A stretch of 64,000 bases of DNA from Gammaproteobacteria bacterium AqS3 (lineage in GTDB: Bacteria > Pseudomonadota > Gammaproteobacteria > MEIF01 > AqS3). Where the stretch lies: assembly GCA_001750645.1 (NCBI GenBank), contig MEIF01000002.1:1-64000 (forward strand), written 5' to 3'. Numbering within the stretch: position 1 is the first letter of the stretch; each line of letters starts with the position of its first letter. Below are positions 5,349-60,527 of this stretch, one piece after another. The position numbers were made by a program, and so were the translations under genes. The notes beneath the pieces were generated by a model. That model had not been told where the DNA came from, made no database searches, and worked only from the letters and a program-made list of their open reading frames with translations.

Positions 5349-8012
5349 TCAACCGCCGGCCTGCCGCACTTGGGCGGCCGAGCCGACACGGCTTTCCAGC
5401 ATAGCGCAGAACTTCCGGCGAAAATTCTCGTCGTTGAGCTCCGGCGTGCTGAGCACCCCGTCGAGGGTGAACAGGTCCTCGACGCGCTCGCCGAGGGTGA
5501 TGATGCGGGCGTCGGAGAGGTGCAGGTCGGCCTCCATCAGCACCTGCCCGATCCGCGCCAGCACCCCGGGGGCGTCGGGGCAGTCGACCCTCAGCGTCCA
5601 GAAGCCGCTGGCCTCCGGGTGCAGGCTGACGCTGCTGGACTGCGGAAAATGCTCCAGGTGCCGGGGGGTGCGGAGGTTGGGCGGCTGCGGCCGCTCGCTC
5701 TGCATCAGCGCCGCCTCGAGGTGCCCGGCAATCTCGGCAAAGCGCGCCTCGTCAACCGGCGAGCCGTCGGCGTCCTGGACCACGTAGGTGTGCAGGATGC
5801 GGTCCCCGCCGGCATCGGTGATCAGGGTGGCGTCGAGGGCGCTCAGCCCCAGCTCGGTGAGCGCGCAGACCACCTGGGAGAAGCGCCAGCGGTGCCTGGA
5901 GGCGTAGATCAGGATGCGGCAGATGCGGTTGGGTGCGCGCCCCATCGTGCAGAGCCGCACCAGCGGTCGGCCGCCGCCGACATCGCCCAGCAGCTCGGTG
6001 GCGTGCCAGGCCGCCACCTCGGGCGGGGTGCGGCGCAGGTAGTTGCCGCCCAGCTGGGTCCAAAGCCCGAGCAGGCGATCACGGGGCAGCGCATCGCCGA
6101 TGAGTCCGAAGACCGCCTCGGAGACATCCTCGGCGGGTGCACCGGCGCCCGGCAGGAACGCCGAGGACGCCCGCAGGTGGCTGCGCGCCTTGAAGTAGAG
6201 CTCGTTCAGCAGCGTCGCGCGCCAGCTGTTCCAGAGCGACGGGTTGGTCGCCAGAATGTCGGTGACGGTGAGCACATAGAGGTAGTCCAGCGCCCGCAGC
6301 GACGGGATCTGGGCGCAGAAGTTCTCGATGACCTCGGGACTGGAGAGGTTCTCCCGCTGGGCGACCAGGGACATCAGCAGGTGCCGGCGCACCAGAAATT
6401 CAAGCAGATCCCGGGCGCGCGCATCGAGCCGCATGCGCTCGGCAAACCGGCGCGCGTCCACGGCTCCGAGCTCGCTGTGGTCGCCGCCCCGGCCCTTGCC
6501 GATGTCGTGAAACATCCCGGCGATGTAGAGCAGCCGGCGGTCGAGTCCGGCGAGCCGGGCGTGGGCATCCGGCAGCTCCGCAACGGCCTCGGGCAGCTGC
6601 AGCGCCTCCATGTGCTCGATCACGCGCAGCGTGTGGGCGTCGATGGTGTAGATGTGATAGAGATCAAACTGGCTGACGCCCTCAATGGCGGCAAACTCGG
6701 GGATGTAGGCCTGCAGCACGCCGTAGCGCCGCATGCGCCTGAGCTGCAGGCCGACCCCCTGCCCCTGGTGCAGCAGCTTCAGAAAGGCGCGCCGGGCCGA
6801 CGCATCGCTGCCGGCCTGATTCAGCCTGTCCCGGTGGCGGCGCAGCAGCCGGATGGTGCGGGACGACAGGTCGCTGATGTCGCTGCGACCCGCCAGCAGC
6901 GCAAAGGCCTCGATCATCGCCGCCGGCCGCTCGGCGAACAGCGCCTCATCGGTGACATCCAGGTCGGTGCCGATGCGCCCGAAGCGGGCGTTGATGCGCC
7001 TGCGGGTCTTCTGCCCGGCGCCCCGCAGCAGCCGCTCGTCAAAGTACTGCATGAGGAAGTGCGACATCTCCGAGGCGCGCAGCACCGTGCGGAAGTAGTG
7101 CCGCATGAAACTCTCGACCGCGCGCGCGGCGCCGTCGCCGGTGTAGCCGAACAGCTCGGCCAGCTGCAGCTGGTACTCAAACATCAGCCGCTCCTGCGGT
7201 TTGCCGGCGACGCAGTGCAGCCCGTAGCGGATCTGCCACAGATCCCGCATGGCGGTGACGACCTCGCGATACTCCGCGCGCGTGATCTCGCCGACATCGG
7301 CCAGGCCGGCCAGACCGCGCCGCACCTTGAGCGAGCGCATGGCAATCCACTCCAGATTCTGCAGGTCGCGCAGCGCCCCGAGACCGTTCTTGACGTCCGG
7401 CTGCAGGCGGTACTCGGTGTTGTCGTGATTCTGGTGGCGCTCGTGCTGCTCGCGCCGCTTGGCGAGGTAGTAGCGCTCCAGCGGCTCAAACGCACCCTGC
7501 AGCCTTCTGCGAAAGGCGTTGTAGGTCTGGCGCGACCCCGCCAGCAGGCGGCTCTCGCTCATGCCGGTCAGCGCGCTGATGTCCTCGCGGGCGAGGGCAA
7601 TGCTCTGACCCACGGAGCCGATGCTGTGGCCGACCTTCAGCCCGGCGTCCCATATCGTGCGGATCAGCGCGGCGGCCTCCTCCCGGTGGCCGGGGCCGCC
7701 CTCGAGCAGCAGCAGGTCGATGTCCGAGTGCGGGAACAGCTCGCGGCGCCCGTAGCCGCCGACCGGCAGCAGCGCCCAGCTGCTGCCCGCGAGCCCGCTC
7801 TGGCGCCAGCTCTGGCGCAGCAGCGAGTCGATCGCGGCGGCGCGCTCGCCGAGCAGCGGGGCGACGCGCGCCTCGGGCCGGGCCAGAAAGCGGTCGCAGA
7901 GCGTGGCGGTATGCACCTGGAGCAGCTGCCTCGCCCGCTGCACGCCGTCGGCGCCCGACAGATCCAAATGCCCCAGCTCCCGCTCAAAGCGGTCGAGACC
8001 GGGCGACTTCAA
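5349..8012 (-). CDS. glnD: Bifunctional [protein-PII] uridylyltransferase/uridylyl-removing enzyme
   Basis: GGYGRRELFPHSDIDLLLL nucleotidyltransferase motif, HD domain 'GMFHDIGKGRGGDHSELG', C-terminal ACT-like region; TTG start overlaps the map stop (TTGA) after GAGGAG. Confidence 0.9.
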   Translation of the reverse strand: MKSPGLDRFERELGHLDLSGADGVQRARQLLQVHTATLCDRFLARPEARVAPLLGERAAAIDSLLRQSWRQSGLAGSSWALLPVGGYGRRELFPHSDIDLLLLEGGPGHREEAAALIRTIWDAGLKVGHSIGSVGQSIALAREDISALTGMSESRLLAGSRQTYNAFRRRLQGAFEPLERYYLAKRREQHERHQNHDNTEYRLQPDVKNGLGALRDLQNLEWIAMRSLKVRRGLAGLADVGEITRAEYREVVTAMRDLWQIRYGLHCVAGKPQERLMFEYQLQLAELFGYTGDGAARAVESFMRHYFRTVLRASEMSHFLMQYFDERLLRGAGQKTRRRINARFGRIGTDLDVTDEALFAERPAAMIEAFALLAGRSDISDLSSRTIRLLRRHRDRLNQAGSDASARRAFLKLLHQGQGVGLQLRRMRRYGVLQAYIPEFAAIEGVSQFDLYHIYTIDAHTLRVIEHMEALQLPEAVAELPDAHARLAGLDRRLLYIAGMFHDIGKGRGGDHSELGAVDARRFAERMRLDARARDLLEFLVRRHLLMSLVAQRENLSSPEVIENFCAQIPSLRALDYLYVLTVTDILATNPSLWNSWRATLLNELYFKARSHLRASSAFLPGAGAPAEDVSEAVFGLIGDALPRDRLLGLWTQLGGNYLRRTPPEVAAWHATELLGDVGGGRPLVRLCTMGRAPNRICRILIYASRHRWRFSQVVCALTELGLSALDATLITDAGGDRILHTYVVQDADGSPVDEARFAEIAGHLEAALMQSERPQPPNLRTPRHLEHFPQSSSVSLHPEASGFWTLRVDCPDAPGVLARIGQVLMEADLHLSDARIITLGERVEDLFTLDGVLSTPELNDENFRRKFCAMLESRVGSAAQVRQAGG

Positions 8013-8770
8013 AAGGACTCCTCGCTGCGCGCGGTCAGCACCTCGCAGCCCCCGGACGTGACCATCAGCGTGTGCTCCCACTGCGCCGAGGCCTTGCCGT
8101 CGGCGGTCTTGGCGGTCCAGTTGTCGGACATCAGCTTGGTGCGCCAGGTGCCCAGGTTGATCATGGGCTCGATGGTGAAGCACAGCCCCTCTTTGAGCAC
8201 CTCGCCGGTTCCGGCCCTGCCGGTGTGCAGCACCTGCGGCTCATCGTGGAATGCGGTGCCGATGCCGTGCCCGCAGAACTCGCGCACCACCGAGTAGTGG
8301 CTGGCCTCGGCGTGCTCCTGGATCGCCCAGCCGATGTCGCCCAGGCGCGCCCCGGGGCGCACGCAGTCGATGCCCCGGTAGAGGCACTCCCGGGTCACCC
8401 GCACCAGCCGCTCAAGGTGGGCCGGCACGCGCCCGACGCAGAACATCTTGCTGGTGTCGCCGTGGTGCCCGTCCTTGATGACGGTGACATCGATGTTGAG
8501 GATGTCGCCCGAGCGCAGCGCCCGCTCGGAGGGAATGCCGTGGCACACCACCTCGTTGATCGAGGTGCAGATCGATTTCGGAAAGCCGCGGTAGTTCAGC
8601 GGCGCCGGTATCGCCTTCTGCTCCAGGGTGATGTAGTCGTGGCATATCCGGTTCAGCTCATCGGTCGTGACCCCGGGCTGGACGTGCTCGGTGATCATCT
8701 CAAGCACAGCGGCCGCCAGGCGGCCGGCCGTGCGCATTTTCTGTCTCTGTTCCTCGGTGCGGGCGATCAC
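8009..8770 (-). CDS. map: Type I methionine aminopeptidase
   Basis: MIARTEEQRQKMRTAGRLAAAVLEMI...NYRGFPKSICTSINEVVCHGIP...GHGIGTAFHDEPQVLH...FTIEPMIN. Confidence 0.95.
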   Translation of the reverse strand: MIARTEEQRQKMRTAGRLAAAVLEMITEHVQPGVTTDELNRICHDYITLEQKAIPAPLNYRGFPKSICTSINEVVCHGIPSERALRSGDILNIDVTVIKDGHHGDTSKMFCVGRVPAHLERLVRVTRECLYRGIDCVRPGARLGDIGWAIQEHAEASHYSVVREFCGHGIGTAFHDEPQVLHTGRAGTGEVLKEGLCFTIEPMINLGTWRTKLMSDNWTAKTADGKASAQWEHTLMVTSGGCEVLTARSEESF

Positions 8771-19553: not shown

Positions 19554-20855
19554 TTATTGGATGACCGGATCGGGGAGCGGTCTGTCATCGGAGGGGAACA
19601 GGGCGGCAAAATCCTCCTTGAGCTTCTGTTTTTCCTCATCGGGCAGCACTCCGCCCGCGAGATGCATTATTAACAGTGTCGTAAGAATGCGGTTTTTCGT
19701 GATGATTCTTCCACTTTCAGCTGTTCCCGACCACAAAACATTTTCCCAGTAACCGGAAATGTTTTCATCATTAATTAGCCAAGGCAATTGATTGAGACGT
19801 TTTGCCGCCTCTTTCCAAGAAAAGCCGCCTGAACCATTTGTCAACTTTAAGAAAGCCTTAAATAAACATTCTTGCCCTACCGGTTTGCCCAGCAAGTTAC
19901 TTTGGCGAATCTGACACCGTAATTCATCTCCGTCCGATTCCAAATCACTCAGCATCAGTTGAAATGTCTCAATATTCTTCAATAAAAATGCCCAGATCTT
20001 CTTGCACTGTTCCTCATATTCATCAGCTTTTTCGGAGTCAGGCAGTCTGGTAATATCCGGAGGAGGAAAATACGCCTTAATAATGGCTTCATTGATGTTA
20101 TAAATAATTGCCAGCGTGGTGAAGTAAGGGTCTTGCTTCCTAAGTGTGTTGTCCTTGAATTTGACAAGATCAGCACCGATCCTAACTCCCTTTTCAATCT
20201 CATTGCTGGCGATATCTCTAGCCAGCACTGCGATAATGTCGTCATCGTTAGTGACGATATTCTCACCTGTCGTCGGCCTTCGTGCCGTCAAATTGATACG
20301 GGTAAAAATGCGCCTGATTTTCTCAGTCTTATTCTTAATTGGATCCACCAATATCAAAACAATATCCTCTGATGCCAACTCGATACATGGTTTTCTAATT
20401 CCAGGTATGGGGTTTCCCTGATTATCCAGCCCGGTAATAGCAAATTCCAATGCTTTAAGACGATGCTGACCATCCAGCGGGACAATTACCTCTCGGCCCT
20501 GAAAGGTCAAAAAACCTATGTTGTCCGAAGCACTTTGATAATCTGAGCGGAGCTCGCCAGCGAACGCATCATCATTAAGAGCCCTAAAATTTAAAGGGCC
20601 ATTACTGTTCATTACAGTAACAATTAAAGCACCAAAAAACCTGGAGGGATTGCTCGCCAAATACGGAGCAATATGATCTCTAACACGCCTATAATTAATA
20701 TCGCGCTGATACTTTTCATCGATGGTTAAATTATCCCAACCAGGCATATCCTTGGGAATCTTCAGAGTCTGAATAACTTCTCCAGCCTTCATTGATATCA
20801 CATAGTAGTTGATATCGCCCATCTTGCCTTTCATCGCAGGTACAGTTGTTGGCAT
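19554..20855 (-). CDS. dndB: DGQHR-domain protein, DndB-like
   Basis: 'REVIVPLDGQHRLKALEFAI' and 'IFTRINLTARRPTTGEN'; co-oriented with a DndC-like gene. Confidence 0.7.
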   Translation of the reverse strand: MPTTVPAMKGKMGDINYYVISMKAGEVIQTLKIPKDMPGWDNLTIDEKYQRDINYRRVRDHIAPYLASNPSRFFGALIVTVMNSNGPLNFRALNDDAFAGELRSDYQSASDNIGFLTFQGREVIVPLDGQHRLKALEFAITGLDNQGNPIPGIRKPCIELASEDIVLILVDPIKNKTEKIRRIFTRINLTARRPTTGENIVTNDDDIIAVLARDIASNEIEKGVRIGADLVKFKDNTLRKQDPYFTTLAIIYNINEAIIKAYFPPPDITRLPDSEKADEYEEQCKKIWAFLLKNIETFQLMLSDLESDGDELRCQIRQSNLLGKPVGQECLFKAFLKLTNGSGGFSWKEAAKRLNQLPWLINDENISGYWENVLWSGTAESGRIITKNRILTTLLIMHLAGGVLPDEEKQKLKEDFAALFPSDDRPLPDPVIQ

Positions 20856-20869
20856 TTGAATTTCTCCTG

Positions 20870-21223
20870 TTACTGGTAATTGGGATTGTGATCGCGATTT
20901 GCGAGCGGTTTAAATACTTTAATCAGGTGCTTTTCAACTTCATTCAGCTGGCCTTTTTCAACTTGTGTGAATTGAATTTCCAAAGATTGGCCGAAATATT
21001 TAATGCGTTTTTTCAATTTGGGGTTGAATGTATTTTTTGGATTCAAATGTTGCTTTAATCTCTTCTTAATTGAACTAGAGGTTTGACCAATATAAATATA
21101 TCGTTTGGCCTCTTTGCACCAAAAAGCATAAACTCCAGACTTGATATCCGGCATTCCCTCTACATCCAAGTAATTCGGACGAATCCTCTGAACCGGAGGC
21201 AGCTCCAACCCGCATTGGCTCAT
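20870..21223 (-). CDS. Small GIY-YIG nuclease-domain protein
   Basis: 'SGVYAFWCKEAKRYIYIGQTSSSIKKRLKQHL...EKHLIKVFKPLANRD'; ATGA overlap with the upstream DUF262 gene. Confidence 0.75.
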   Translation of the reverse strand: MSQCGLELPPVQRIRPNYLDVEGMPDIKSGVYAFWCKEAKRYIYIGQTSSSIKKRLKQHLNPKNTFNPKLKKRIKYFGQSLEIQFTQVEKGQLNEVEKHLIKVFKPLANRDHNPNYQ

Positions 21224-23061
21224 TTCGGAAACCTCCAAACCTGGGTCGCCATTTTGGCCAGCTTTTCCTGTCGCTCATTGATATTTGCAGGGCCCCAGTC
21301 GTGTTTGCGGGATAAGTCGCGGTTGAGGCTGATGGGATTGCTTCTAAAGGTTTCCTTCTTGTTCGAAAAACTCCGGTTATAGTCCCCGGCGGTGTTGTGC
21401 GGGCCGGCCAGCAAGGTCATATTTCCATAGCGGTCGACATATTCCTGGTGGGCATTGCCAAAGCGGGGCCAGCCTGCATGGAACCTTTCAGATCTGGGCA
21501 GGATGTGCTCCAGCGTCAATTCTTTCTGAAAATGGGGCTGGGGGTGCAGTTCAAGATCCTGCGCGCCAGCAATCGCCGACAAAAACAATTTGATCTTGTT
21601 TGAGTTTTTCTCCGTCACCCACTTCATTCTGCTGATGAATTGGGCATCGTTTATCACTTGATAGTCAGAATGCTCCGATTCGAATTTTTTGAGGAAGGCC
21701 ATCATGTTCAAAGAGCGGGTATTCCTGCTGCGAAAAATTTTGCTGGCCAGTCTTGAAAAGGGCTCCTCAAAGCGAGAGGTTTCAAACTTTGCAACGATAA
21801 AGGACACCCTCATGACGTAAGCATTGAACTGAATGATCATCTTGCGCAGATGCCTGACCGCGACCCTGTGCTTCTGGCTGTCGGACTGGGGCAGCCGGCA
21901 GTAATGAAAAAGCAGCGCAAACAGAACCGGAAACGTGACTTTTTTGTATCTCGCCAGCTCGTGCAGCAAGACGGGCAAATCTCGACCGGAGCGCAATTCC
22001 CCGGCGTCTCTCGTAAATGCCTGGCACAGGGCGCCCTCCTCCGGAAAAGCGATGCTTTTATAGACCTCGGTGCAGATCGGGTCGGTTAAATCGTCGATCA
22101 AATCGCGGGCGCGCTGAATCTCGGCATCCTCGCCGCTGTCATCGAAGATGTCCTCCTCAATTTTCTCGCGGACTTTTTCATACAGCTGCTCCTTGTGAAT
22201 GAACCCGTAGCGGCACTGAAAATAGCAGCGCGCATATTCATCAAAACGGCCCGCATATCTGGAATTATTGTCAATGACATTTCTGCGCATGTTTTCAATC
22301 TTTCTGTGCACATCCTGGCGCTCCTCCTCGGAGTGATTGAAATACGAATAAAGGTAATTTCTGATGAGATCGATGGCTGCAAGCGGCTTCCCCCGGGAGT
22401 TGATGGTTTCAAATATTTTGTTGGGGTTCATTTCTTCCGGAATGGTCAGGCAGGATATTTCCACGCAGTTGGTAATGAAGTGAAAATATCTCTCAAGATC
22501 CGAATCGGTTCTTCTGCCTTCATGAAAAAATTGATCAATCGTCTTGTTGGCGTCCAGCAGTTTTGTCTTCTCTTTTAATTCCTGGCCAATGACTATGTTT
22601 TTATAGTGCAGCCTGTACTCCTCCGGGGCGTGTATTCTCAGCATCGAGCTGAACCTGCCGGAAGATGCGTCGGAAAATTGATGGGAATGGTTGTCTTTTA
22701 GGTCATAGAGCAGACGCAGCGCCCGCCTCTCCACCAAATCCCGCTCTACCCCCCCCCTACAAATATTGTCACCGGAGAAATACCGGCCCAGCACGCTCAG
22801 AATGATGGACAGGGTAATCAGGCGCTGCTGCCCGTCAATAATTTCAATCCTTCCGGAAGTATCGCCCGCCCTTTTGGTGAGCATCACCGACCCGAGGAAA
22901 TAACACGGCTCGCCGTCCTGCACCGCAGTCCAGGTGTCCTCCAGCAGTCGGGTGGCGTGTTTTTTCTCCCAGTCGTAGTAGCGCTGATACCAGGGAATCT
23001 CAAAAACCCCCAGAGTCAGAAGCTCGTGAATCGAGCGCGTCTTGGAAACAACCATGGTCAC
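21220..23061 (-). CDS. DUF262 + DUF1524 (HNH) protein, SspE/GmrSD-like
   Basis: 'IEIIDGQQRLITLSIIL', 'IFETINSRGKPLAAIDLIRNYL', C-terminal 'LTLEHILPRSERFH...DRYGNMTLLAGPHNTAGDYNRSFSNKK'. Confidence 0.8.
   Translation of the reverse strand: MTMVVSKTRSIHELLTLGVFEIPWYQRYYDWEKKHATRLLEDTWTAVQDGEPCYFLGSVMLTKRAGDTSGRIEIIDGQQRLITLSIILSVLGRYFSGDNICRGGVERDLVERRALRLLYDLKDNHSHQFSDASSGRFSSMLRIHAPEEYRLHYKNIVIGQELKEKTKLLDANKTIDQFFHEGRRTDSDLERYFHFITNCVEISCLTIPEEMNPNKIFETINSRGKPLAAIDLIRNYLYSYFNHSEEERQDVHRKIENMRRNVIDNNSRYAGRFDEYARCYFQCRYGFIHKEQLYEKVREKIEEDIFDDSGEDAEIQRARDLIDDLTDPICTEVYKSIAFPEEGALCQAFTRDAGELRSGRDLPVLLHELARYKKVTFPVLFALLFHYCRLPQSDSQKHRVAVRHLRKMIIQFNAYVMRVSFIVAKFETSRFEEPFSRLASKIFRSRNTRSLNMMAFLKKFESEHSDYQVINDAQFISRMKWVTEKNSNKIKLFLSAIAGAQDLELHPQPHFQKELTLEHILPRSERFHAGWPRFGNAHQEYVDRYGNMTLLAGPHNTAGDYNRSFSNKKETFRSNPISLNRDLSRKHDWGPANINERQEKLAKMATQVWRFPK
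22749..22757. repeat. 9-bp poly-C (poly-G on the coding strand) inside the SspE-like gene
   Basis: ctctaCCCCCCCCCtacaaat read directly. Confidence 0.85.
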
Positions 23062-24287
23062 GCTTCGATCTCAATCTTAAGCAGCTTCTTGAGCGAGTTG
23101 CGGGCGTCCTCGCCGACCTGATCGCGCCTCCAGATCTCCTCGATGTATTCCTTCTCCCCCTCGGAGATCAGCGCCTCGCCGATCTCCTCGCCCAGCGCCT
23201 CGAGCCGCCGCAGAATCTCCCGGCGGGTTTCGAGGCGGAACGGCCCCAGGGTCGGGGTGCCATCGGCGCGCAGCTTGATGCGGCCATTGCGGCGAACCGT
23301 GCTGCGCTTGCTGTCGTCCTCCCTCAGGGCGATCAGCCACTCGCGAAAGTCGGCCAGCAGCTCAAGCTTTTCCTGCTCCCGGTCATCGGAGGCGCCGGAG
23401 GCGATCAGCCCGCGCATGCTGCGATCCTTCTGCACCACGGTGCAGGTCCAGCAGCCGAAGCGGGGCGAGGTCGTCCCGCACGAGGGCGCATCCTCCTTGG
23501 TCAGAACCAGCGGACACTCGCCCCCGCCGGCATTGCGGTAGAGCGTGATCAGCTGCCGGTGCGAGCCGCCCCAGGGCGCCGCCCGCTGCATCAGGATCAG
23601 CCAGACGTCCTCGTCGGTGAGGTCGGCCAGCGGGGCGAAGACCCGGCAGCCCCTGATGCTGCTGTGCGGGTTGGTCCCGTCGGCCTGGACGCCGTGCTTG
23701 GCCATGTTCCGCCGCCGGCTGGTCGATTCGCTGCGGCGCGTGCCGATCAGCAGCACGGCCTTTTTGTGCCGCCGCACCAGCCGGTTGATCAGCTCATCGG
23801 TCGGCTGGATTTTCATGCGGTCGGTACACCAGCGGAAATTGCGCGTCGGCGGGATGTAGCCCCGGCCGATCAGATTCACCCAGAAGGTCTGGTTGATGTA
23901 GGGCTGCGTCAGCTTGATCGACACGGGAAACCCGGCCTCCTGTGCGGCGCCGCCGATGATTTCCAGCGACCGCTTCAGATGCCCGATGACCAGCGGCGAT
24001 TCAACCAGCGTGTCGTTGGAGACGATGAAAATCGGTCGGCGCCGCTGCTCGGCCGGCAATTCGCCGAGCACCTCCCAGACCAGCTGCAGCAGCAGGGTCG
24101 AGTCCTTGCCGCCGGAATAGGCGACGATCCACGGCTCGTCGCCCTCCCGCAGATAGGTGCGCGCAACCACCTCCCGCACGGCCTGGTAGCGCTCGGCGAT
24201 GTCCTCGATTGTGGAGGCGACGGGCTGCTCCATGTACTCAACCGCAGGCAGCGGCGGGCGATCCTGTTCCTCTGCGGATGGCTGCAT
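23058..24287 (-). CDS. dndC: DndC-like DNA phosphorothioation sulfurtransferase (PAPS reductase/ATP-pyrophosphatase family)
   Basis: 'PWIVAYSGGKDSTLLLQLVWE' PP-loop, 'RWCTDRMKIQPTDELI', 'GCWTCTVVQKDRSMRGLI'. Confidence 0.85.
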   Translation of the reverse strand: MQPSAEEQDRPPLPAVEYMEQPVASTIEDIAERYQAVREVVARTYLREGDEPWIVAYSGGKDSTLLLQLVWEVLGELPAEQRRRPIFIVSNDTLVESPLVIGHLKRSLEIIGGAAQEAGFPVSIKLTQPYINQTFWVNLIGRGYIPPTRNFRWCTDRMKIQPTDELINRLVRRHKKAVLLIGTRRSESTSRRRNMAKHGVQADGTNPHSSIRGCRVFAPLADLTDEDVWLILMQRAAPWGGSHRQLITLYRNAGGGECPLVLTKEDAPSCGTTSPRFGCWTCTVVQKDRSMRGLIASGASDDREQEKLELLADFREWLIALREDDSKRSTVRRNGRIKLRADGTPTLGPFRLETRREILRRLEALGEEIGEALISEGEKEYIEEIWRRDQVGEDARNSLKKLLKIEIEA

Positions 24288-24377
24288 TTTTCAGGAGTGC
24301 CCAACGCATGAGTGTTCAGAGATTAGCAGAAAGTCATTTTCCAGCGCAGAAACGACAAGTTCAGAATCGCCGGCCGC

Positions 24378-25529
24378 TCACGCAGTCCTGACGAGGGCCT
24401 CGCCCGCCGATCGCGCGACCGCCTCGGCCAGCCTGACCGGAACGGCATTGCCGAGCTGCCGCATGGCCTCCGTCCAGACGCCGGCGAATTCAAAGCCATC
24501 CGGAAATGTCTGAACGCGCGCGGCTTCCCTGATCGTCAGATAGCGGACGCGGCCATCGTGAAAGCGGATCATGTTCTCCCCGCCGGGGACGCCGTGATCC
24601 CCGGCTTTCAGCGCCTTGCCGGGCTCATCCAGCGGGCTGCCGGTATGCCCGGGATAGGGCCTGGCCCCCTGACGCAGCTGGTGCCCCGAGATATCGGCGT
24701 CGCCATCGGCCCAAGGCTCCGGCAAACCTTTCAGAGCCTGTCGAATGGTCTTCCACGGATGCTCATCCGGAGGCAGCATGCCGAAATCATTTGTCAATCG
24801 CCTGCGGCAGGTCCCGTCGGCAATCACCTCCTGCTCCTGCGGGCTGGGCGTCGCACCGGTTTCATCCCAGTACGCCCCGGTGACAAACTTGGCATAGTCC
24901 AGGCTCTTCCTGCTGTGCGTCTGCTTTGGAAATGCCCACTCCACATTCAGTCCCTTTCGAAAACCGACGAAAAACACCCGCTCCCGCTTCTGGGGAACTC
25001 CGTAGTCCGCTGCGTTCAGACATTGAAAGAGCACGCTGTATTCAAGATCAACAGGCCTGCCCGCAGACTTAACCCGCTCGAGGCGGATCAAATGATCGGC
25101 CCACGCCTCGCCGGCCTTTTTGGGCAGCGAGGGATAGGTCAGGCACAGGGTGATGTATTCAAAATACGAGGCGAAGGACGGGCGCATCAGCCCTTTGACG
25201 TTCTCAAAAATAAACGCCCGGGGGCGGAGCGCCCTGATTGCCCGAACCGCCTCGGGAAACATATCGCGCGCATCGGCCTGGCCCCTGGCCTTTCCGCCGA
25301 TGGAGAATGGCTGGCACGGCGGCCCGCCGGCGATGATGTCGACTTGGCCCTGCAAGGCCGCATAGTCAAACTCGGCAATGTCGACCTCAAACACCCGGGA
25401 GGAGAAGTTGGCGCGCAGCGTGCCGCAGGCGTTCTTATCCCGCTCGAGCAGCCCCTCGCATTCGAAGCCGCCATTTTTGACGCCGAGCGCCAGCCCGCCG
25501 GCGCCCGAAAACAACTCCAAGGCTTTCAT
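24378..25529 (-). CDS. DNA (cytosine-5-)-methyltransferase
   Basis: 'MKALELFSGAGGLALG', 'IIAGGPPCQPFSIGGKARGQADARDMF', 'FENVKGL', 'TIREAARVQTFPDGF...QLGNAVPVRLAEAVA'. Confidence 0.9.
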   Translation of the reverse strand: MKALELFSGAGGLALGVKNGGFECEGLLERDKNACGTLRANFSSRVFEVDIAEFDYAALQGQVDIIAGGPPCQPFSIGGKARGQADARDMFPEAVRAIRALRPRAFIFENVKGLMRPSFASYFEYITLCLTYPSLPKKAGEAWADHLIRLERVKSAGRPVDLEYSVLFQCLNAADYGVPQKRERVFFVGFRKGLNVEWAFPKQTHSRKSLDYAKFVTGAYWDETGATPSPQEQEVIADGTCRRRLTNDFGMLPPDEHPWKTIRQALKGLPEPWADGDADISGHQLRQGARPYPGHTGSPLDEPGKALKAGDHGVPGGENMIRFHDGRVRYLTIREAARVQTFPDGFEFAGVWTEAMRQLGNAVPVRLAEAVARSAGEALVRTA

Positions 25530-25533
25530 CATT

Positions 25534-26145
25534 TCACCGTCTCGCATGAAGATGCCGCCTCACTCTTGAAAGTATGGCCTCCTCGCTGTCTCGGTGGACT
25601 TTCAAGTGCGCCGCCCAAGAACGCCCTGGATGAATGGTATCCCACTCGGATCGGGACTGCGCATACCGCCCTCTTCCGGGATCGTGGTTGCCGAAACCGT
25701 CGATACACGAATTCCACAGGGGACGATATTTTTTGATCAACTCTGATTCAAGTGCCCCTATCAGGCTAGATATGGAGCCTTCCAGAACAATCATGCGCAC
25801 GATGAAATCGGCTACTGACAAGTGTGCCCCTTGGTCTATCGAATGGGCATGCTCCCTTAGCCTCTGGTGAAGCGATGCCTGTTTTTTGCTTTCTTCACGG
25901 CCCTGTCTCCAGCCAAGCGGGACAGCTTTTCCGACGTATATGGGAACTTCTCTAAGCGATTCCATTTGGCATAGCCGCTGATAAGTCGGATACCTTCCCC
26001 TGTAATAAAGGCCGTATACACCTGCCCCTTCAAAAGGCTCAAGATCTGAAAGTTCAAACATCTGCGTTTTTTCAAAAAAGGCGGTGGCGGATGCGATCAC
26101 TTCCGGCCAGCGGGCATCCTGAAAGCGATAGGACTCTATGTCCAC
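25534..26145 (-). CDS. Eco29kI-family type II restriction endonuclease (GIY-YIG superfamily)
   Basis: 'FEGAGVYGLYYRGRYPTYQRL...VPIYVGKAVPLGWRQGRE...HQRLREHAHSI...LWNSCIDGFGNHDPGRGRYAQSRSEWDTIHPGRSWAAHL'. Confidence 0.85.
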   Translation of the reverse strand: MDIESYRFQDARWPEVIASATAFFEKTQMFELSDLEPFEGAGVYGLYYRGRYPTYQRLCQMESLREVPIYVGKAVPLGWRQGREESKKQASLHQRLREHAHSIDQGAHLSVADFIVRMIVLEGSISSLIGALESELIKKYRPLWNSCIDGFGNHDPGRGRYAQSRSEWDTIHPGRSWAAHLKVHRDSEEAILSRVRRHLHARR

Positions 26146-32254: not shown

Positions 32255-32365
32255 CTATATCCTCTGGGTGTCAAGCTCGGCCACGAGCCTGTCGTATTGA
32301 GGGGGAGTGAGTTTCTTGATCAAGCCCAGCCTTTCCACATCCAAGCCTAATTGGAATTTTTGCAT
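32255..32365 (-). CDS. Possible 36-aa micro-ORF overlapping the 3' end of the transposase-MTase fusion
   Basis: MQKFQLGLDVERLGLIKKLTPPQYDRLVAELDTQRI*; overlaps the end of the 32347-33462 gene by 19 bp. Confidence 0.35.
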   Translation of the reverse strand: MQKFQLGLDVERLGLIKKLTPPQYDRLVAELDTQRI

Positions 32366-33462
32366 CGTTCAAATATCGTGACAACCCGAAACCTGTGGTT
32401 GGTGCTCTTCACCATCCCGATCAGGCCCGTGATGCTCCATTCGTCTTTCCTATACATGGGCAAAACCTGATCGAGCCAGACCACATGGGTGCCTATTTTA
32501 GCCCGCTTGCCCAGGGTCTTCATCACTTTATTGCGCTTCACCATCGTCGGCTGATAGTGATCCGCATCCTCGACAGAATACGGCGGGTCAGCCAGTATCA
32601 GGTCATAGTTCTCAATGGGCACGTTCTTCAGCGTCTGGGCATCATCCAAAAATGTGGGCTCCGCTTCAGGATCCAAATCCACCGTATCCCCAGGCATGAC
32701 AGACAAGTCCACCCGACCGGAAAACAGATGCAGGACTCGGCCTTTGTCGGGGAATAGGGCCTTGATGCGCTTGAGATAACCCGCCGGATACCCGCCGTAA
32801 TAGCCCGACCGCACCCGGTAATCGTTGCCCATCACCCAGATCCCCAGAATGCGACCGTCCTCCCCAACATGCAGGCATTCCGGAAACTTGGTTTTCTCGA
32901 CATAGCTGGCAATGCGCTGGCTCGGCGTATAGGTCATTCGATATCTCAGGATATTCCGCACGGTGCGATCAAATTCTCGGATCAGTTTTTTATTGACAGG
33001 ACTGGCGATATTTTTCTTTTCTTTTTTTTCTGCATGAATTTCGTCCTTTTTTGCAATGCCGGCTAATCTGATATTTTCAGCTGCGCAGGCCTCCCGTATG
33101 CGCCGCAGCATCAGCCAGGCGGATTTCTGCGTAATGCCAATTTCACTGCCCAATTGCGGGCTGGATAAATTCTGACGGGCAGTCTGAAGCAGGTAAATCG
33201 CATAAAGCCATTTATGCAGCTTAATGTTGGAGCGCTCAAAGATCGTCTCCGTGCGAACGGAAAAATCTTTGCGGCAGAACTTGCATCGATACTTGCCCGA
33301 GGTCCGGCTCTTTACGGGGGAGGCATTATTCCTGCTGTCGCAATAGGGACAATCGACCCCTGTTTTCCACCGAATAAGCGCCAAATATTCCGCCGCTGAT
33401 TTTTCGTCGGAAAATTTCGCAGAAAAATCAGAGACGTCGGCGGGGTTTTCCAGTTTTTTCAT
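32347..33462 (-). CDS. Fusion protein: IS1595-type transposase N-terminus (zinc ribbon + HTH) with C-terminal DPPY DNA methyltransferase
   Basis: N-term 'CPYCDSRNNASPVKSRTSGKYRCKFCRKDFSVRTETIFERSNIKLHKWLYAIYLLQTARQNLSSPQLGSEIGITQKSAWLMLRRIREA'; C-term 'GRVLHLFSGRVDLS...VDLDPEAEPTFLDDAQTL...YDLILADPPYSVEDADHY'. Confidence 0.8.
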   Translation of the reverse strand: MKKLENPADVSDFSAKFSDEKSAAEYLALIRWKTGVDCPYCDSRNNASPVKSRTSGKYRCKFCRKDFSVRTETIFERSNIKLHKWLYAIYLLQTARQNLSSPQLGSEIGITQKSAWLMLRRIREACAAENIRLAGIAKKDEIHAEKKEKKNIASPVNKKLIREFDRTVRNILRYRMTYTPSQRIASYVEKTKFPECLHVGEDGRILGIWVMGNDYRVRSGYYGGYPAGYLKRIKALFPDKGRVLHLFSGRVDLSVMPGDTVDLDPEAEPTFLDDAQTLKNVPIENYDLILADPPYSVEDADHYQPTMVKRNKVMKTLGKRAKIGTHVVWLDQVLPMYRKDEWSITGLIGMVKSTNHRFRVVTIFERCKNSN

Positions 33463-33553
33463 GAAAAAACCCGGATTTTTCGTGAAAACCGGCGCGCATT
33501 ATAGCCGTGCATCTGGTGCTCAAGGTATATAGATCCTCCGGTTTGGATGGGGT

Positions 33554-36529: not shown

Positions 36530-38368
36530 TCAGGCTTTAACACCCCAGATCCGCATGCCCATGTCGGCGAGGACTTGCTGGCGGCGGGCGATCTCATCCG
36601 GACCCCAGCTGGAATAGGGCTGCAGCGGCTCGGGGTCAACTTCCGGCTTGAAGTGGTTGCCCTGTCCCGAGACGATGGCGCGCGTCATCAGCAGCGTTGC
36701 GGTCTTGTACTCGGGAATTTTCTGCTCGAAACTCATGCCGCGGACTCTCCTGGCCTTGTCCCTGGTCACCAGGGTCAAGTTACCCAGTGAATTGAGCTGT
36801 TCCTGACTGGCCCAAATCGCCCCATCGGCTCCGACGGCATCAATGACCTGCTCAATTTCATAAGTCGAACCCCTGCAGAATTTCTGCAGTTCCGGCTCGG
36901 ACTGGTTGGTGTGTTTTTGAATGTGCTGGGCCAGCTTGGCGAGAACGTATTTGGTGCGGTATTTCTGCTTGATCGGATCCTCGCCCTGGGCCAGCTTATC
37001 CAGGACATCCTGGACTTCTTCCTGCTTGGAGTTCATATAGGAGACAAAGTGATTTTCGATAAATTGCTCGAAGGACTCCCTGTCGTTGCGCTGAATGCTG
37101 CGCAGTTCATTGGCCCACTTCGGAAACTGCGTCTCCAGAAAATTGGTCTGCTGCTTGGTGATCAATACATGAAAAATAAAGTTTTCGGCATAGTGCGCCA
37201 GGTCGCTGAACAATTTGTCGTTCAAGTGTCGCGCACCCATGAACAGAAAATTCTGCTGCTTCATGCTGGTGCCGCCGAGGTAGGGAATATTCTGCATGCT
37301 GGGGACAGCATTTCCCGAGGGACTCTTGAATCTGAGGAATTTTGCGTAAAACTCGGCGGCCTTGATCAGTGTGCCCACCGTATCCTTCATTTCGCTGCTG
37401 TTGGCGATCAGGCTGATGTTCTCGCGCCCGCGGGTGCTGCCCTTGAACCACTCATAGAGCTTGGCCTCGCTCATCTGCGCCCCGGTAAATTCCGAGGCGA
37501 CGAAATAGCGAAAAAATACCATGGGATTCTTTTCATCGCGCAGCAGATCCCGGGTCAGATATTTCCATTTCTTGATCACTTGGGACTTGCTCCTGTCCGA
37601 TGCACGGCCAAACACCTGGTTTTTGATCAGGTCAATGGCCGTCAGATCGACGCCGCGCGCATTGATGCGCTCAAAAATGGTGATTGCTGTCGAGGTGTCC
37701 TCCGTGATGATGCGCGCGAACGTGACGCCCTTGCCGACAATCTGGGCAAATTCACGCAGATTGTCAGCCCGGCTGAAATGATTGTTCAAAAATTGCATGA
37801 AAAATTCATACACATCCCGCATATTTTTGTGCGAGCCCTGCATATTTTCTGAAAGCTCTTCAGGCACGGCGCCCTCGCTGTAGATTCCATGCAGCACCTT
37901 TTCATCGTCGGCATATTGCGGCTTGAGTTTGAAGCTTTCAACCTCTCTGCCATTCATCAGGGTGCGGGTCTCAAGCAGCAGTGTCTCGACCAGACTGGGA
38001 ACGTTTTCCTCCTGTTCTATCAGCGTGCCGCGGATGGCGCAGAACAGCAGAAACAGGGTCGTGACGCGCTGCTGGGCGTCGATCAATAAAAAGGATTCAT
38101 TGCTGTCCTGATCGGTCTGCTTGCAGGCCACCATCAGCCCGAGAAAATATGACCGCTTGAGCGCCTGCGCCACCGACGGCTCAGTGCCCGGGTCAGCGCC
38201 CGGCGGCGGCTTGAGGAGATTGTTCTCGTCGTAAAAGCACTCGCGAATATCTTCGACCAATTCCCCCGCGTTCTTCTTGGTCCAACGATATTCGCGCTGA
38301 AAATCCGGGATTTCGTAATAATCCTTGAAAACCCCCTGGATTGAAATCATGTCCGCATTTTCTGGCAT
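36530..38368 (-). CDS. DUF262/DUF1524-like protein with altered motifs (paralog 1)
   Basis: 'YYEIPDFQREYRW', 'LLIDAQQRVTTLFLLFCAIR', 'IFERINARGVDLTAIDLIKN', C-term 'STYEIEQVIDAV...LGNLTLVTRDK'. Confidence 0.8.
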   Translation of the reverse strand: MPENADMISIQGVFKDYYEIPDFQREYRWTKKNAGELVEDIRECFYDENNLLKPPPGADPGTEPSVAQALKRSYFLGLMVACKQTDQDSNESFLLIDAQQRVTTLFLLFCAIRGTLIEQEENVPSLVETLLLETRTLMNGREVESFKLKPQYADDEKVLHGIYSEGAVPEELSENMQGSHKNMRDVYEFFMQFLNNHFSRADNLREFAQIVGKGVTFARIITEDTSTAITIFERINARGVDLTAIDLIKNQVFGRASDRSKSQVIKKWKYLTRDLLRDEKNPMVFFRYFVASEFTGAQMSEAKLYEWFKGSTRGRENISLIANSSEMKDTVGTLIKAAEFYAKFLRFKSPSGNAVPSMQNIPYLGGTSMKQQNFLFMGARHLNDKLFSDLAHYAENFIFHVLITKQQTNFLETQFPKWANELRSIQRNDRESFEQFIENHFVSYMNSKQEEVQDVLDKLAQGEDPIKQKYRTKYVLAKLAQHIQKHTNQSEPELQKFCRGSTYEIEQVIDAVGADGAIWASQEQLNSLGNLTLVTRDKARRVRGMSFEQKIPEYKTATLLMTRAIVSGQGNHFKPEVDPEPLQPYSSWGPDEIARRQQVLADMGMRIWGVKA

Positions 38369-38420
38369 TTGCTGTCATTCCCCTAAAAAGCCGGGCGGAG
38401 TATACACAGGCCAGATCCGG

Positions 38421-38458
38421 CAAGATCTCCCAAGATCTGCAAGATCCAATGCAAGATC
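38421..38458. promoter_or_regulatory. 4x CAAGATC direct-repeat array upstream of DUF262 paralog 1
   Basis: CAAGATC at 38421, 38431, 38440, 38452 (spacing 10/9/12). Confidence 0.75.
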
Positions 38459-38595
38459 AGCCAATGATCCGGTTGTTCAAGGTTTGAACAGGCTTCTGAG
38501 TCGGGTTTGATCCCCATCTCCGGTGCAGCCCCGCACCGTCGAGACACCACACCACCGCCCGCTCACGGCATCTGCACCCTGCCCGTCGATGCGGC

Positions 38596-40569
38596 TTAAG
38601 AAGTTGCAGGCTGCTGCCCGCCACCCCAGATCCGCATGCCCATGTCGGCGAGGACTTGCTGGCGGCGGGCGATTTCATCCGGACCCCAGGCTCCGCCTTT
38701 TTCCAAACCGGCAACAATAGAGCGCGTCATCGACAGCTGCGCGTTTTCGTATACAGGAATTCTTTTATCAAAAGGCAGGTCCTGAACCCGCTCCGCCTCG
38801 GATTTGGTCAGCAATGTCAGGTTGCCCAGCACATCAAGCTGCTCTTCGCTGGCCCAGTCTTCAGCCTTGGCTCCCCTGACATCAATGATCTGGGCGATCT
38901 CATAAGCCGTTCCTTTGCAAAGTCTCCTCATTTTCAAGACGGGCTCTATATGTTGGGCCAGTTTTGCAAGAACATATTTTGCGCGAGCCTTCTGCTTAAT
39001 CGGCGCCTCGTTCCGGGCCAATGCACCCAATAATCCGTGAACGTCCTCCCACTTGGGGCTCATGTAAGAGACAAAGTGCCTGTCAATAAATTGTTTGAAC
39101 ACCTGCCTATCATCGTGCTCGATTTCTCGCAATTCCAATGCCCATTTGGGAAACTCCCTCTCCAAAAGGTTGGTCTGGTGCCTGGTGATCAGCACATGAA
39201 AAATATATTTTTCAGTGCAGTCCGCCAATTCGCCAAACAGGTCTTTATCCAGGTGACGGGCGCCCATGAACAAATAATTCTGCTGCTTCATTCTGGCGCC
39301 GCCAAGAAAGGAAATATTCTCCATGCTCTCAACATAGTTTCCCGAAGGATTGCAAAATTGGCGGAATTTTGCGTATGGCTTCGCAGCCTCGGTCAATGCC
39401 CTCACCGCATCCACCATATTGGAGGAGTTTTTTACTATCCTCTCCCTCCTTCTGGTTCTTTCCCTGTTCCAATACCAGCTGTCGGCAATCAGATCTATAT
39501 TGTCACGCCAGACTGACTGAACCGTGTCTTTCCTCTCCATTTCCACCTGCATTTCCACCCTGGTTTTATCCTTGAACCAGCTGAGAAGCTTGTCCGCACT
39601 TGTCTGCATGCCGGTAAATTCCGAGGAAATGAAATAGCGAAGAAATTCCGTGGGATCTTCCTCATCGCGCAATACTGTTTGAGTCAAGTGCCTCCATTTT
39701 TCGATTACATCCTCTTTTTCCCTCCTTGGCGTGCGGCTGAATATCAGGTTTTTAATCATTTCAAATGGAGTCAAAGGGACGCCGCGCGCATTGATCCTCT
39801 CAAAAATGGTGTTCGCAGTTGTGTCATCTTCCGTGATGATTCGTGTGAGCTTCACCCCTCTGCGAACAATTCGAGCCAATTTGAGCAGGTTTTTCAGATC
39901 TTTGTCTTCATCCCCGATAAAGTGCTCTCTAAAAAATTTCATAAAGAATTGATGCACGTCATACATATTCTTGTGGGAAGTCAGCGGATTCTCAGCAAAT
40001 TCCTCAGGGAGAGCCCCCTCTCCATAGATTTCATGAAGTACTTTTTCATCGTTTTCATACTGAGGCTTGAGTTTGAAGCCATTTCCCGAACTGCTGTCTT
40101 CCAGAGTGCGCTCCTCGTACAAAAGCGTTTCATATACGTTAGACGGTTTTTTTCCGTATTCCCTCAATGTTCTGCGAATGGCACAGAACAGCAGAAAAAG
40201 GGTTGTGATGCGCTGCTGGGAGTCGATCAGCAAATAAGTCTCATTGTCGTCCTGATCCCTCTCTATGCAGGCCACCATCAGCCCGAGAAAATATGGCCGA
40301 TTCTTGAATTGACCGTTCAACCACTTTGACTGTTCCTCTTCCAGGCCCGGATCCGAAAGCTGCAGCCTGAATTTTTTGCTGTCTTTGTCATTTTCCTGGT
40401 CTTTGCCCTTTTCATACTCATATTCATAAAACCAATCGCAGATATCCTCCACCAATTCCCTGGCTTCCTTCTCGGTCCAGCGGTACTCACGCTGAAAGTC
40501 CGGTATTTCGTAATAGCTCTTGGAGTTGAAAACCTCCTCAACCGAAATCATTGGCGCTTCTGCTGACAT
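38596..40569 (-). CDS. DUF262/DUF1524-like protein with altered motifs (paralog 2)
   Basis: 'YYEIPDFQREYRWTEKEARELVEDI', 'LLIDSQQRITTLFLLFCAIR', 'TAYEIAQIIDV...LGNLTLLTKSE', ends WGPDEIARRQQVLADMGMRIWG like paralog 1. Start chosen by alignment to paralog 1. Confidence 0.8.
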   Translation of the reverse strand: MSAEAPMISVEEVFNSKSYYEIPDFQREYRWTEKEARELVEDICDWFYEYEYEKGKDQENDKDSKKFRLQLSDPGLEEEQSKWLNGQFKNRPYFLGLMVACIERDQDDNETYLLIDSQQRITTLFLLFCAIRRTLREYGKKPSNVYETLLYEERTLEDSSSGNGFKLKPQYENDEKVLHEIYGEGALPEEFAENPLTSHKNMYDVHQFFMKFFREHFIGDEDKDLKNLLKLARIVRRGVKLTRIITEDDTTANTIFERINARGVPLTPFEMIKNLIFSRTPRREKEDVIEKWRHLTQTVLRDEEDPTEFLRYFISSEFTGMQTSADKLLSWFKDKTRVEMQVEMERKDTVQSVWRDNIDLIADSWYWNRERTRRRERIVKNSSNMVDAVRALTEAAKPYAKFRQFCNPSGNYVESMENISFLGGARMKQQNYLFMGARHLDKDLFGELADCTEKYIFHVLITRHQTNLLEREFPKWALELREIEHDDRQVFKQFIDRHFVSYMSPKWEDVHGLLGALARNEAPIKQKARAKYVLAKLAQHIEPVLKMRRLCKGTAYEIAQIIDVRGAKAEDWASEEQLDVLGNLTLLTKSEAERVQDLPFDKRIPVYENAQLSMTRSIVAGLEKGGAWGPDEIARRQQVLADMGMRIWGGGQQPATS

Positions 40570-40618
40570 TGCTGTCATCCCCCAAAAAGCCGGCGGAGTA
40601 TACACAGGCCAAATCCGC

Positions 40619-53988: not shown

Positions 53989-55011
53989 TCACCGCCTGGC
54001 ATCCCGCACCCTGGAAGCGGCGATCAGGCCAGAGGCGATGCCCCAGACCTTCACCCGATGCCTGCCCCACCAAGTGCCCTGCTCCGATTCTGTGCTCTCT
54101 GAATCATCCGCCAGCAGATCATCCCGTCTCGGCCTATGCCTAACGAACACGCCGAACGATGCCCCGCCGCCGGCGCTGGCGAATGTCGATCCGCTGATGT
54201 AGACCGTAGTCCTGTCCCGCAGCGACAGGCTCACGCCGATGCCGGCGGTCACGACGGTTCGGCGGTAGCTGTATCTGTCCTGCCTGTCCAGCGTGTCGCT
54301 GAACGTCACCTGAATGTCCGAGGTTGCGCTGATGCTGACGATATTGTTGACGGCGAACAGCACCGACGGGCTGATCGAGATCGTGTCGCCCCTGTCAAAT
54401 CTGCCGGCATTGCGTATATGCTCCGGCGGTATGTGGGCATAGCCGAACGCGATCCTGAGCACGATGGGATCGTAAGTCCGATACAGCGACAGCCCCGCAT
54501 TGAACGCACCCCGCCCCCGCCTGAAGTCCTCGCCCTCCGCCGACCGGTTTTCCAGCAGATCAAAACCGACCCAGCCGAACGCTCCCGGAGTCTCGTTCTC
54601 CGGCGACAGACCGCGGCTGATCTGCGCGCGCAGTGTGCCGAGCCGTGTCGTGGTGTCTTTTTCGTCTCTGCATCTGGGACCAAGATAGCGGCCAAGTGTC
54701 GGTGCATAAATGCACTCGCCGCCCCTTCTGGGGTCCGCGTTGCGGTCGTCCGTGTGGGAAGCGTCCAGGCTCAGACCGACCTCGATGTCCTCGGTCAGGC
54801 CGTAGCTGTATCCCAGCTCTGCACTGAGGCGGTCGGCAGTTTCATTGCCGAATGCTATGTGCCTGATGCTGTAGCTGATCTCGGAGCCGCCCGACGGGGC
54901 GAGCAGGTTCTCAATACTCAGCGGCAGCCCGCTGTCTCCCTGGGCGGCTGCGCGTGTCACGGCACAAAAAACGAGCAGCAGAGCAAGGCGAAAACTGCGG
55001 GACGGACTCAC
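53989..55011 (-). CDS. Outer-membrane beta-barrel protein of cassette A (FapF/transporter-like role inferred)
   Basis: GTG start overlapping the C39 stop (GTGA); signal peptide SFRLALLLVFCAVTRAAAQ; alternating beta pattern with 'YGLTEDIEVGLSLDASH...YISGSTFASAGGGASFGVFVRHRP'; paralog of 59466-60527. Confidence 0.65.
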   Translation of the reverse strand: MSPSRSFRLALLLVFCAVTRAAAQGDSGLPLSIENLLAPSGGSEISYSIRHIAFGNETADRLSAELGYSYGLTEDIEVGLSLDASHTDDRNADPRRGGECIYAPTLGRYLGPRCRDEKDTTTRLGTLRAQISRGLSPENETPGAFGWVGFDLLENRSAEGEDFRRGRGAFNAGLSLYRTYDPIVLRIAFGYAHIPPEHIRNAGRFDRGDTISISPSVLFAVNNIVSISATSDIQVTFSDTLDRQDRYSYRRTVVTAGIGVSLSLRDRTTVYISGSTFASAGGGASFGVFVRHRPRRDDLLADDSESTESEQGTWWGRHRVKVWGIASGLIAASRVRDARR

Positions 55012-55634
55012 TGAAATGCGGCCTCTCGCGTAAACCGCAGAGCTTGGTATGCCGAAGCCGCGCCCTCCGGCGTATGGAAAAAGTCGCGGCGCATCGGCTG
55101 CCCTTTGAGCTTGGGGACGATCAGCAGCACCCTGCCCTCGCCCGTGCCATCGGCATCCCACAGCTCAGCGAACTGATGCCGGAGCAGCTGGCGGTTGCCC
55201 CAGGATGGATCGGCCAGGGCGATCAGGCCGTCCGCCCGGACACCGCGGACAACCGAGAAATGCTCCTCTCCCCTGTGGACGAGATGCACGATCACGGGGA
55301 TTTTCAGCCTCAGCAGGTCGGCGAGCGATATTCGGAGACCAGCCGCCCTAAACCCGTAGGTGCCAGCCGCAGCCGCCAAGTCTGCGAACGAGGCGGCCTC
55401 GGATATCTCCATTCTTTGCAGCACTCCGGCCTCGTTCGTCTCCACGCCGTAGAACTCCCTCAGAAGCGTCGCCAGAGCCGCAGCACCGCAGGAGTAGTCC
55501 AGATCCTGCATCTCCACACGCTCCCGCTGAATTTCTTGCCAAGTTTGGGAAGGCGCCGGAAGCCATTGGAGTTTCGCCGCCTGACCGGAATGCTGCCCCG
55601 AAGCCAATATTGAAATCAGCAAGACAGAAGCCAA
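55008..55634 (-). CDS. Periplasmic C39-family peptidase (cassette A)
   Basis: 'MQDLDYSCGAAALATLLREFYGVETNEAGVL...IPVIVHLVHRGEEHFSVVRGVRADGLIALADPSWGN'; N-terminal signal sequence. Confidence 0.85.
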   Translation of the reverse strand: MASVLLISILASGQHSGQAAKLQWLPAPSQTWQEIQRERVEMQDLDYSCGAAALATLLREFYGVETNEAGVLQRMEISEAASFADLAAAAGTYGFRAAGLRISLADLLRLKIPVIVHLVHRGEEHFSVVRGVRADGLIALADPSWGNRQLLRHQFAELWDADGTGEGRVLLIVPKLKGQPMRRDFFHTPEGAASAYQALRFTREAAFQ

Positions 55635-59465: not shown

Positions 59466-60527
59466 CTACTCAGACTCTGACAAAGGTTCAGTTCCAGGTT
59501 CGGGGGCAGTATCAGGGGCGGTCGGCTTCTCTGAAGATTCCTGCTCCGAAGCCCGCTCCAAATGCCGGCGCAATTTCTCAACTTGTTCACGTTTTAGCTT
59601 GCCCCCGAAATTACGTCGCACACTGATGCTCATAGACGCCTCACTCGGGCCAGTTGCAGCAAAATCACCGCCAATATGAATACTGGTGAACTGGCTGGAG
59701 GTGAATCCAAACCCGCCTCCAAAGCGCATCGCTGATTGTCGTGGGCGAATTAACTGCCCATCAAGTCTGTCGCCCTGTCTGACGGTGAGATCAGCATCTA
59801 CAGATAAGCTCACCCAGCTATTGACTGCGAAAACAATTGAGGGAACCACATAAAACACGTCGCCAGAGTCATACCGTCTATCGCTGGACAGCAGTCGGTA
59901 TTCCGGTGTGAAACGACTGCCAACGGTCAAGCTGATCACAACCGGATCAAGCGTGCGATAGGCGGTCAGACTCAGGCTTCCGCTGCCGGGCAGTTTCTCA
60001 AATTTCTCACCCTCTGCCACTCGATTTTGCAGCAAATCCACTGCCAAGCGGCCATATACTCCGGGCTTGTCCTTCTCCGGAGAAAGCGTGTGACTCACGC
60101 TGGCAGTGAGCGAATTCAGACTCAGAGAAGTTTCCCTCCGAATGCTTGAACCGAAATTAGCGCGCTCATCAATTTGCGTGGCTCCCATGCGCACCCCGAT
60201 CTCCGTGTCTTGGGTGAGGCCATAGCGCCAGTTGATATCTGCTGTCAGATAGTCTGTGTTATTCCGCGAGTATTCCTGGCTGTGCGGGACCTCTATAACA
60301 TCATCGTTCCCCAAACGCAGCAGCTGTGTGTAATAGCTCAAGTAGTTCGCATCAACACTGGCGTGCGAAAAACTGAACTGAAGGCTGGACTGCTTCTCCG
60401 GAGCTTGAAGTATTGAGAATAGAAATGCCCTGCCGTCCTCATCCAATTGCGCATAAACGATGGGAGTGAATAGCGCAAAAACAAGGGCAGCCAAAGCGCG
60501 ATAGACCCTCAAGCCCATCATCGCCAC
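59466..60527 (-). CDS. Outer-membrane beta-barrel protein of cassette B
   Basis: Signal peptide 'VYRALAALVFALFTPIVYAQ'; 'YGLTQDTEIGVRMGATQ', 'TASVSHTLSPEKDKPGVYGRLAVDLLQNRVAEGEKFEKLPGSGSLSLTAYRTLDPVVISL' aligns to the cassette A barrel. Confidence 0.65.
   Translation of the reverse strand: MAMMGLRVYRALAALVFALFTPIVYAQLDEDGRAFLFSILQAPEKQSSLQFSFSHASVDANYLSYYTQLLRLGNDDVIEVPHSQEYSRNNTDYLTADINWRYGLTQDTEIGVRMGATQIDERANFGSSIRRETSLSLNSLTASVSHTLSPEKDKPGVYGRLAVDLLQNRVAEGEKFEKLPGSGSLSLTAYRTLDPVVISLTVGSRFTPEYRLLSSDRRYDSGDVFYVVPSIVFAVNSWVSLSVDADLTVRQGDRLDGQLIRPRQSAMRFGGGFGFTSSQFTSIHIGGDFAATGPSEASMSISVRRNFGGKLKREQVEKLRRHLERASEQESSEKPTAPDTAPEPGTEPLSESE

Follow-up and report, generated by a model that had tools for sequence, protein, structure and literature searches.

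What does the open reading frame at positions 32347–33462 (minus strand) encode, and how did it arise? This is the question raised by the window, a stretch of 64,000 nucleotides from contig MEIF01000002.1 of Gammaproteobacteria bacterium AqS3. The frame runs unbroken over 371 codons, and its 371-aa product would join the N-terminal half of an IS1595 transposase, via a linker, to a methyltransferase. According to the preliminary description, this is a domesticated transposase whose target-binding module now directs a methyltransferase. Our analysis gives no support to that proposal: among the loci and genomes searched the fusion is a singleton, and its neighbourhood points to a decayed mobile restriction–modification element. 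We put at about 55% the probability that the locus is a decayed IS1595 transposon that once carried a type II restriction–modification pair, of which an orphan methyltransferase is left.

Two halves of different ancestry

Both halves gave profile matches far beyond chance, to IS1595 and DNA methyltransferase families respectively, in agreement with the preliminary description; neither of the two outcomes named there as refuting was seen. The transposase half (residues 1–160; 32983–33462, minus strand) was delimited by alignment, Pfam and NCBIfam profiles, AF2 modelling and comparison of conserved sites. Its residues 19–65 match the Pfam profile Zn_ribbon_IS1595 (E = 1.6e-9), exceeding the curated cut-off, while residues 77–155 match the NCBIfam IS1595 transposase profile NF033547 (E = 1.1e-12), with a score of 48 bits that falls under the cut-off of 75 because profile positions 1–81 of 215 alone are present. 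Over residues 17–160, the product is 44–58% identical to a set of 35 viral-contig IS1595 transposases. The four cysteines of the zinc ribbon (C38, C41, C60 and C63) are all retained, and the zinc ribbon is followed by an HTH and by the start of the DDE domain. The IS1595 character of the N-terminus had thus been recognized correctly, but the half does not end at about residue 135, as had been proposed; the homology includes D140, the first catalytic Asp, and continues up to about residue 160. Likewise, the DDE domain had been considered absent, and most of it is indeed lost, but its start with D140 remains. D140 is the sole catalytic residue, the other two being missing together with the rest of the domain, and the fusion product cannot transpose. 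The GG motif after D140 is also gone (G145E, G146K), and the K-rich stretch 141–160 may derive from the junction and not from a decayed DDE domain.

At near-invariant DNA-binding positions the fusion differs at 9 of 53, as compared with 6–32 in intact diverged transposases. At the start of the DDE domain, 3 of 6 near-invariant positions are lost, among them G145, which is lost in none of 28 intact transposases. Judged from the sequence, this contrast is suggestive of a contribution by the N-half, although it is not significant (Fisher p = 0.09). In the AF2 model of residues 1–180, which is of moderate confidence (mean pLDDT 70.5), the strands of the zinc ribbon and the helices of the HTH can be seen, and a fold search of the PDB with this model returned no significant match; nor did a single-sequence query with residues 1–180 find viral relatives. 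The structure prediction that had been suggested was confident for the methyltransferase and less so for the N-half. Elsewhere in the host genome, IS1595 transposases are present as fragments only. One such truncated N-half (contig C188, about 5760–6360) carries a lysine-rich AAKNKK-repeat tail instead of the DDE domain, and two IS1595 N-halves with truncated DDE on viral contigs (L200 and L244) have similar lysine-rich C-terminal tails (DKVLAYRPK...AKKRAKARK-like).

The linker (residues 161–175; 32938–32982, minus strand) has no homologue and is predicted to form a helix. It leads into a small, complete methyltransferase (residues 176–371; 32347–32937, minus strand), delimited by alignments, near-invariant positions and AF2. 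As had been proposed, this half bears VLHLFSG (motif I, residues 243–249) and a DPPY motif (motif IV, DPPYS, residues 292–296). Residues 188–366 match PHROG 3816, annotated 'DNA methyltransferase', with E = 8.8e-47, and the PADLOC type II methyltransferase profile also matches (E = 1.1e-5). Identity to 50 stand-alone methyltransferases is 47–78%, and M176 sits where free-standing relatives have their start codons. The enzyme is probably active, since none of its 67 near-invariant positions is changed. In the full-length AF2 model its pLDDT is mostly 85–97, while the N-half, for which this run provided no alignment depth, is of low confidence. By family the half belongs with DNA methyltransferases; by fold alone RNA and small-molecule methyltransferases match equally well, indeed rank first, with no DNA methyltransferase among the best 50, and the modelled fold taken by itself is that of a generic Rossmann methyltransferase. 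The family annotation, together with the overlapping endonuclease gene of the related L056 locus described below, suggests that the substrate is DNA.

No second instance of this fusion came to light. None of 148 related methyltransferase loci, from viral contigs and bacterial or archaeal genomes, has an in-frame transposase half; 149 genomes of the same class and 399 at phylum level (a set in which the order is not otherwise represented) yielded no fusion, nor did the plasmid and phage matches listed; and none of 79 viral-contig loci with IS1595 N-halves runs on into a methyltransferase. Accordingly, the fusion is a singleton within the genomes and loci searched, and among these genomes it is not conserved across lineages as a single-copy gene. 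Three loci that appeared to be further fusions (L037, L167 and L168; tblastn, query 97/120–366) were rejected because the matches cross stop codons. Some other methyltransferase loci have in-frame upstream stretches, but these do not match the transposase half, and the idea of N-terminal extensions at other loci was rejected. Truncated IS1595 transposases, on the other hand, are common, since in 9 of the 79 N-half loci fewer than 100 residues follow the homologous part (one of them ended by the contig edge).

Remnants at the locus and an intact transposon elsewhere

Directly downstream of the fusion, a 36-codon frame (32255–32365, minus strand) overlaps its stop codon. Residues 6–32 of this frame align without gaps to residues 126–152 of the L056 endonuclease with a score of 57, the highest score among 2000 shuffles being 43. 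We regard the frame as what remains of an RsaI-like restriction endonuclease gene, about the last 27 codons at its 3′ end; next to the methyltransferase there is only this remnant and no intact cognate gene. Another copy of the endonuclease was not found in the host genome, in a search without a responding positive control, and relatives were found neither in plasmids and viral contigs nor, in searches run without a positive control, in genomes of the class (protein query) and the phylum (PADLOC family).

On the other side of the fusion lies a site resembling an IS1595 terminal inverted repeat, GGATCTATATACCTTGAGCACCA (33514–33536, minus strand). It is situated 52–74 nt upstream of the start codon, a spacing equal to that in intact elements. 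Scored against a consensus built from observed IS1595 repeats alone, it is equalled by 4 of 3000 shuffles and by 2 of 2556 window tiles of 100 bp. The opposite terminal repeat and a target duplication were not found at the window locus; a left candidate is matched by 362 of 12792 tiles.

How these pieces may once have been arranged is illustrated by L056, a locus on the gammaproteobacterial MAG contig JAJEHQ010000019.1. Here, positions 5907–8330 are occupied by an intact IS1595 transposon, present in one copy in its genome, with 33-nt inverted repeats at its ends (91%) and a perfect 8-bp direct repeat, GAATTTTA, on both sides as target duplication. Its transposase has a complete DDE domain. 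The methyltransferase gene (5977–6558), of the same clade as that of the window, is overlapped by an endonuclease gene encoding 156 aa (PADLOC REase_II, E = 4.6e-15), a homologue of which, distant at 24%, is annotated as R.RsaI in Synechococcus phage Syn19. A PHROG 3816-type methyltransferase can thus ride, with an endonuclease, as the cargo of an IS1595 element. In the tree, the window methyltransferase groups with four gammaproteobacterial methyltransferases (support 96/86), and next to join are the L056 methyltransferase and one archaeal MAG sequence (support 99/91).

The two loci have in common a methyltransferase of the same clade, endonuclease sequence directly downstream of it and IS1595 transposase sequence, with terminal repeats in L056 and one terminal-repeat-like site in the window. 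L056 retains complete transposase and endonuclease genes and an additional 83-aa coiled-coil ORF, whereas the window has remnants. The window and L056 do not represent one and the same element, since their transposases belong to different subgroups (about 35% identity) and the gene order and orientation differ: the L056 transposase gene is downstream of and convergent to the methyltransferase gene, that of the window upstream and co-directional. Moreover, L056 could be an independent capture, given that the arrangement bounded by terminal repeats was seen in just 1 of 148 methyltransferase loci. At a further locus, L064, an IS1595 transposase lies near the methyltransferase, but it is of another subgroup and no repeats bracket both.

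Elsewhere in the window, positions 3121–4080 (plus strand) encode a protein of near-identical coiled-coil repeats (GVREELKGDIKEARENLEGKIDG) that resemble the coiled-coil ORF3 of 83 aa in L056 (GVREGVQEDMKVLEEGLKEEI). Positions 19554–25547 (minus strand) hold in a row genes for a DndB-like DGQHR protein, a DUF262/GmrSD-type protein, a DndC-like PAPS reductase (PADLOC DndC, 1.6e-114) and a C5 DNA methyltransferase, with low GC at one end; this is a candidate defence island, possibly a phosphorothioation-type or related system with a C5 methyltransferase. Near the fusion, positions 36530–40605 (minus strand) encode two adjoining paralogous GmrSD/DUF262 proteins (612 and 669 aa; PADLOC HEC-06/Orf5-like). 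A pair of genes for a C39-peptidase-like and a beta-barrel-like outer-membrane protein is duplicated at 53989–55634 and 59466–61216 (minus strand).

Origin and possible function of the fusion

Several observations argue for descent from a decayed element. The transposase homology stops at about residue 160 and the methyltransferase starts at M176 like its free-standing relatives; the endonuclease remnant follows immediately after the methyltransferase, as the endonuclease gene does in L056; the terminal-repeat-like site is in the right upstream place; and the methyltransferase clusters with that of an intact IS1595 transposon carrying this very cargo. The presence of mere IS1595 transposase fragments in the rest of the host genome points in the same direction, as does base composition, the flanks having 64–66% GC as compared with 47–54% in the fusion (47.5% in the transposase half, 54% in the methyltransferase half), which stands alone between genes for an FkbM-type methyltransferase and an acyl-CoA synthetase. 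We infer that the ancestral cargo would have been a compact type II pair, in which an RsaI-like endonuclease gene came after that of the methyltransferase. One deletion would have taken out the stretch between a point shortly after the first catalytic Asp and a point shortly ahead of the methyltransferase start codon, so that the zinc-ribbon/HTH half and the methyltransferase came to share one reading frame; another may have begun where the methyltransferase gene ends and extended to within the last ~30 codons of the endonuclease gene. The past of the window element as such a transposon and the order of the deletions are likewise reconstructed from these remains. Loss of an endonuclease while its methyltransferase is kept leaves an orphan methyltransferase, which is harmless. 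The present product would be either the full 371 aa, in which the DNA-binding part is a passive extension, or a short form from M176. Against such an origin stand the mismatch in subgroup and orientation with L056, the failure to find the other repeat and the duplication, and the occurrence of the arrangement in 1 of 148 loci.

Alternatively, IS1595 may have inserted independently beside a virus-derived methyltransferase, with a subsequent deletion, so that the two never travelled together. We consider this rather doubtful. It would accord with the finding that 146 of 148 methyltransferase loci, many of them on uncultivated viral contigs where this methyltransferase is common, are without any IS1595 transposase, with the frequency of truncated N-halves and with the distinct subgroup of the window transposase; yet an endonuclease remnant, a methyltransferase and an IS1595 end occur together both here and in the same-clade L056. 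An assembly or binning chimera of two unrelated reads is most improbable. The host genome assembly is of metagenome type and comprises 234 contigs, but the junction is in frame, the locus lies well inside a contig of 104950 bp and the endonuclease remnant carries the cargo on past the far side.

A different question is whether a fusion protein is made at all. Since M176 preserves the native start, the transposase half may not be co-translated, and translation from M176 would turn the N-half into a silent in-frame relic. In keeping with this, there is no strong Shine–Dalgarno sequence at either start, and near the 5′ end of the fusion there are only weak sigma-70-like sites, at chance frequency. 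We would nevertheless rate this reading as rather doubtful, because 175 codons of the N-half have stayed open and the zinc cysteines intact, and silent sequence tends to lose both unless the event is recent. The same features, the frame open throughout and the four cysteines retained, could be taken to favour a domesticated methyltransferase whose zinc-ribbon/HTH half binds terminal-repeat-like DNA, including the site at its own gene, and steers methylation as an autoregulated or site-directed epigenetic switch. Such a function would fit with the conservation of DNA-binding positions within the range of intact transposases while the start of the DDE domain has decayed, with the candidate cognate site upstream of the start codon and with the apparent lack of a separate target-recognition domain in the ~190-residue methyltransferase. 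However, the gene is a single copy without orthologues among the genomes and loci searched, the contrast between the two sets of positions falls short of significance and may be blurred by a K-rich junction, and DNA binding by the N-half is an assumption from family knowledge. The methyltransferase family works free-standing and therefore does not need a targeting half, and production of the enzyme is explained more simply by the internal start. All in all, we regard targeting as unlikely, and slightly more so the specific proposal of a working enzyme in which a module binding IS1595 terminal repeats recruits a recognition-less methyltransferase to transposon ends, its own promoter included, so as to silence or mark IS1595 relics.

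If the decayed-transposon origin is right, restriction–modification genes have a concrete route for travelling on simple IS1595 transposons, of which L056 is an intact example, and through the decay of such transposons a methyltransferase can acquire a foreign DNA-binding domain and become chimeric. Since the fusion is one gene without orthologues, the main value lies in the transposon with restriction–modification cargo. Should the fusion also prove active and redirected, nature would have produced a parallel to the engineered zinc-finger or transposase methyltransferase fusions.

Comparison with known systems

With typical IS1595 transposases (PF12760 and PF12762; NF033547) the fusion shares the zinc ribbon, the HTH, the first catalytic Asp and an upstream terminal-repeat-like site. 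Unlike them, it is without nearly all of the DDE domain and scores under the family cut-off. With PHROG 3816 methyltransferases (~190 aa, mostly from IMG/VR viral contigs) it shares the whole domain and all near-invariant positions, at 57–78% identity to most members; these relatives are free-standing, whereas the window enzyme is preceded by 175 in-frame residues of transposase and linker.

In the open-access literature searched we found no description of an IS1595 element with restriction–modification or methyltransferase cargo, although an earlier one may exist. The principle of an IS1595 element with passenger genes is established for transporter insertion sequences (tIS), for example MTnSag1 and the lincomycin resistance element tISCpe8 (PMC5704250), whose cargo is other than restriction–modification. 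The RsaI restriction–modification system acts on GTAC and involves m4C (PMC6256690). GTAC counts were mildly low everywhere and hence uninformative. The endonuclease carried by L056 is distantly related to RsaI (24% to the R.RsaI homologue of Syn19), and the methyltransferase encoded next to R.RsaI in Syn19 shows no recognisable relationship to that of the window.
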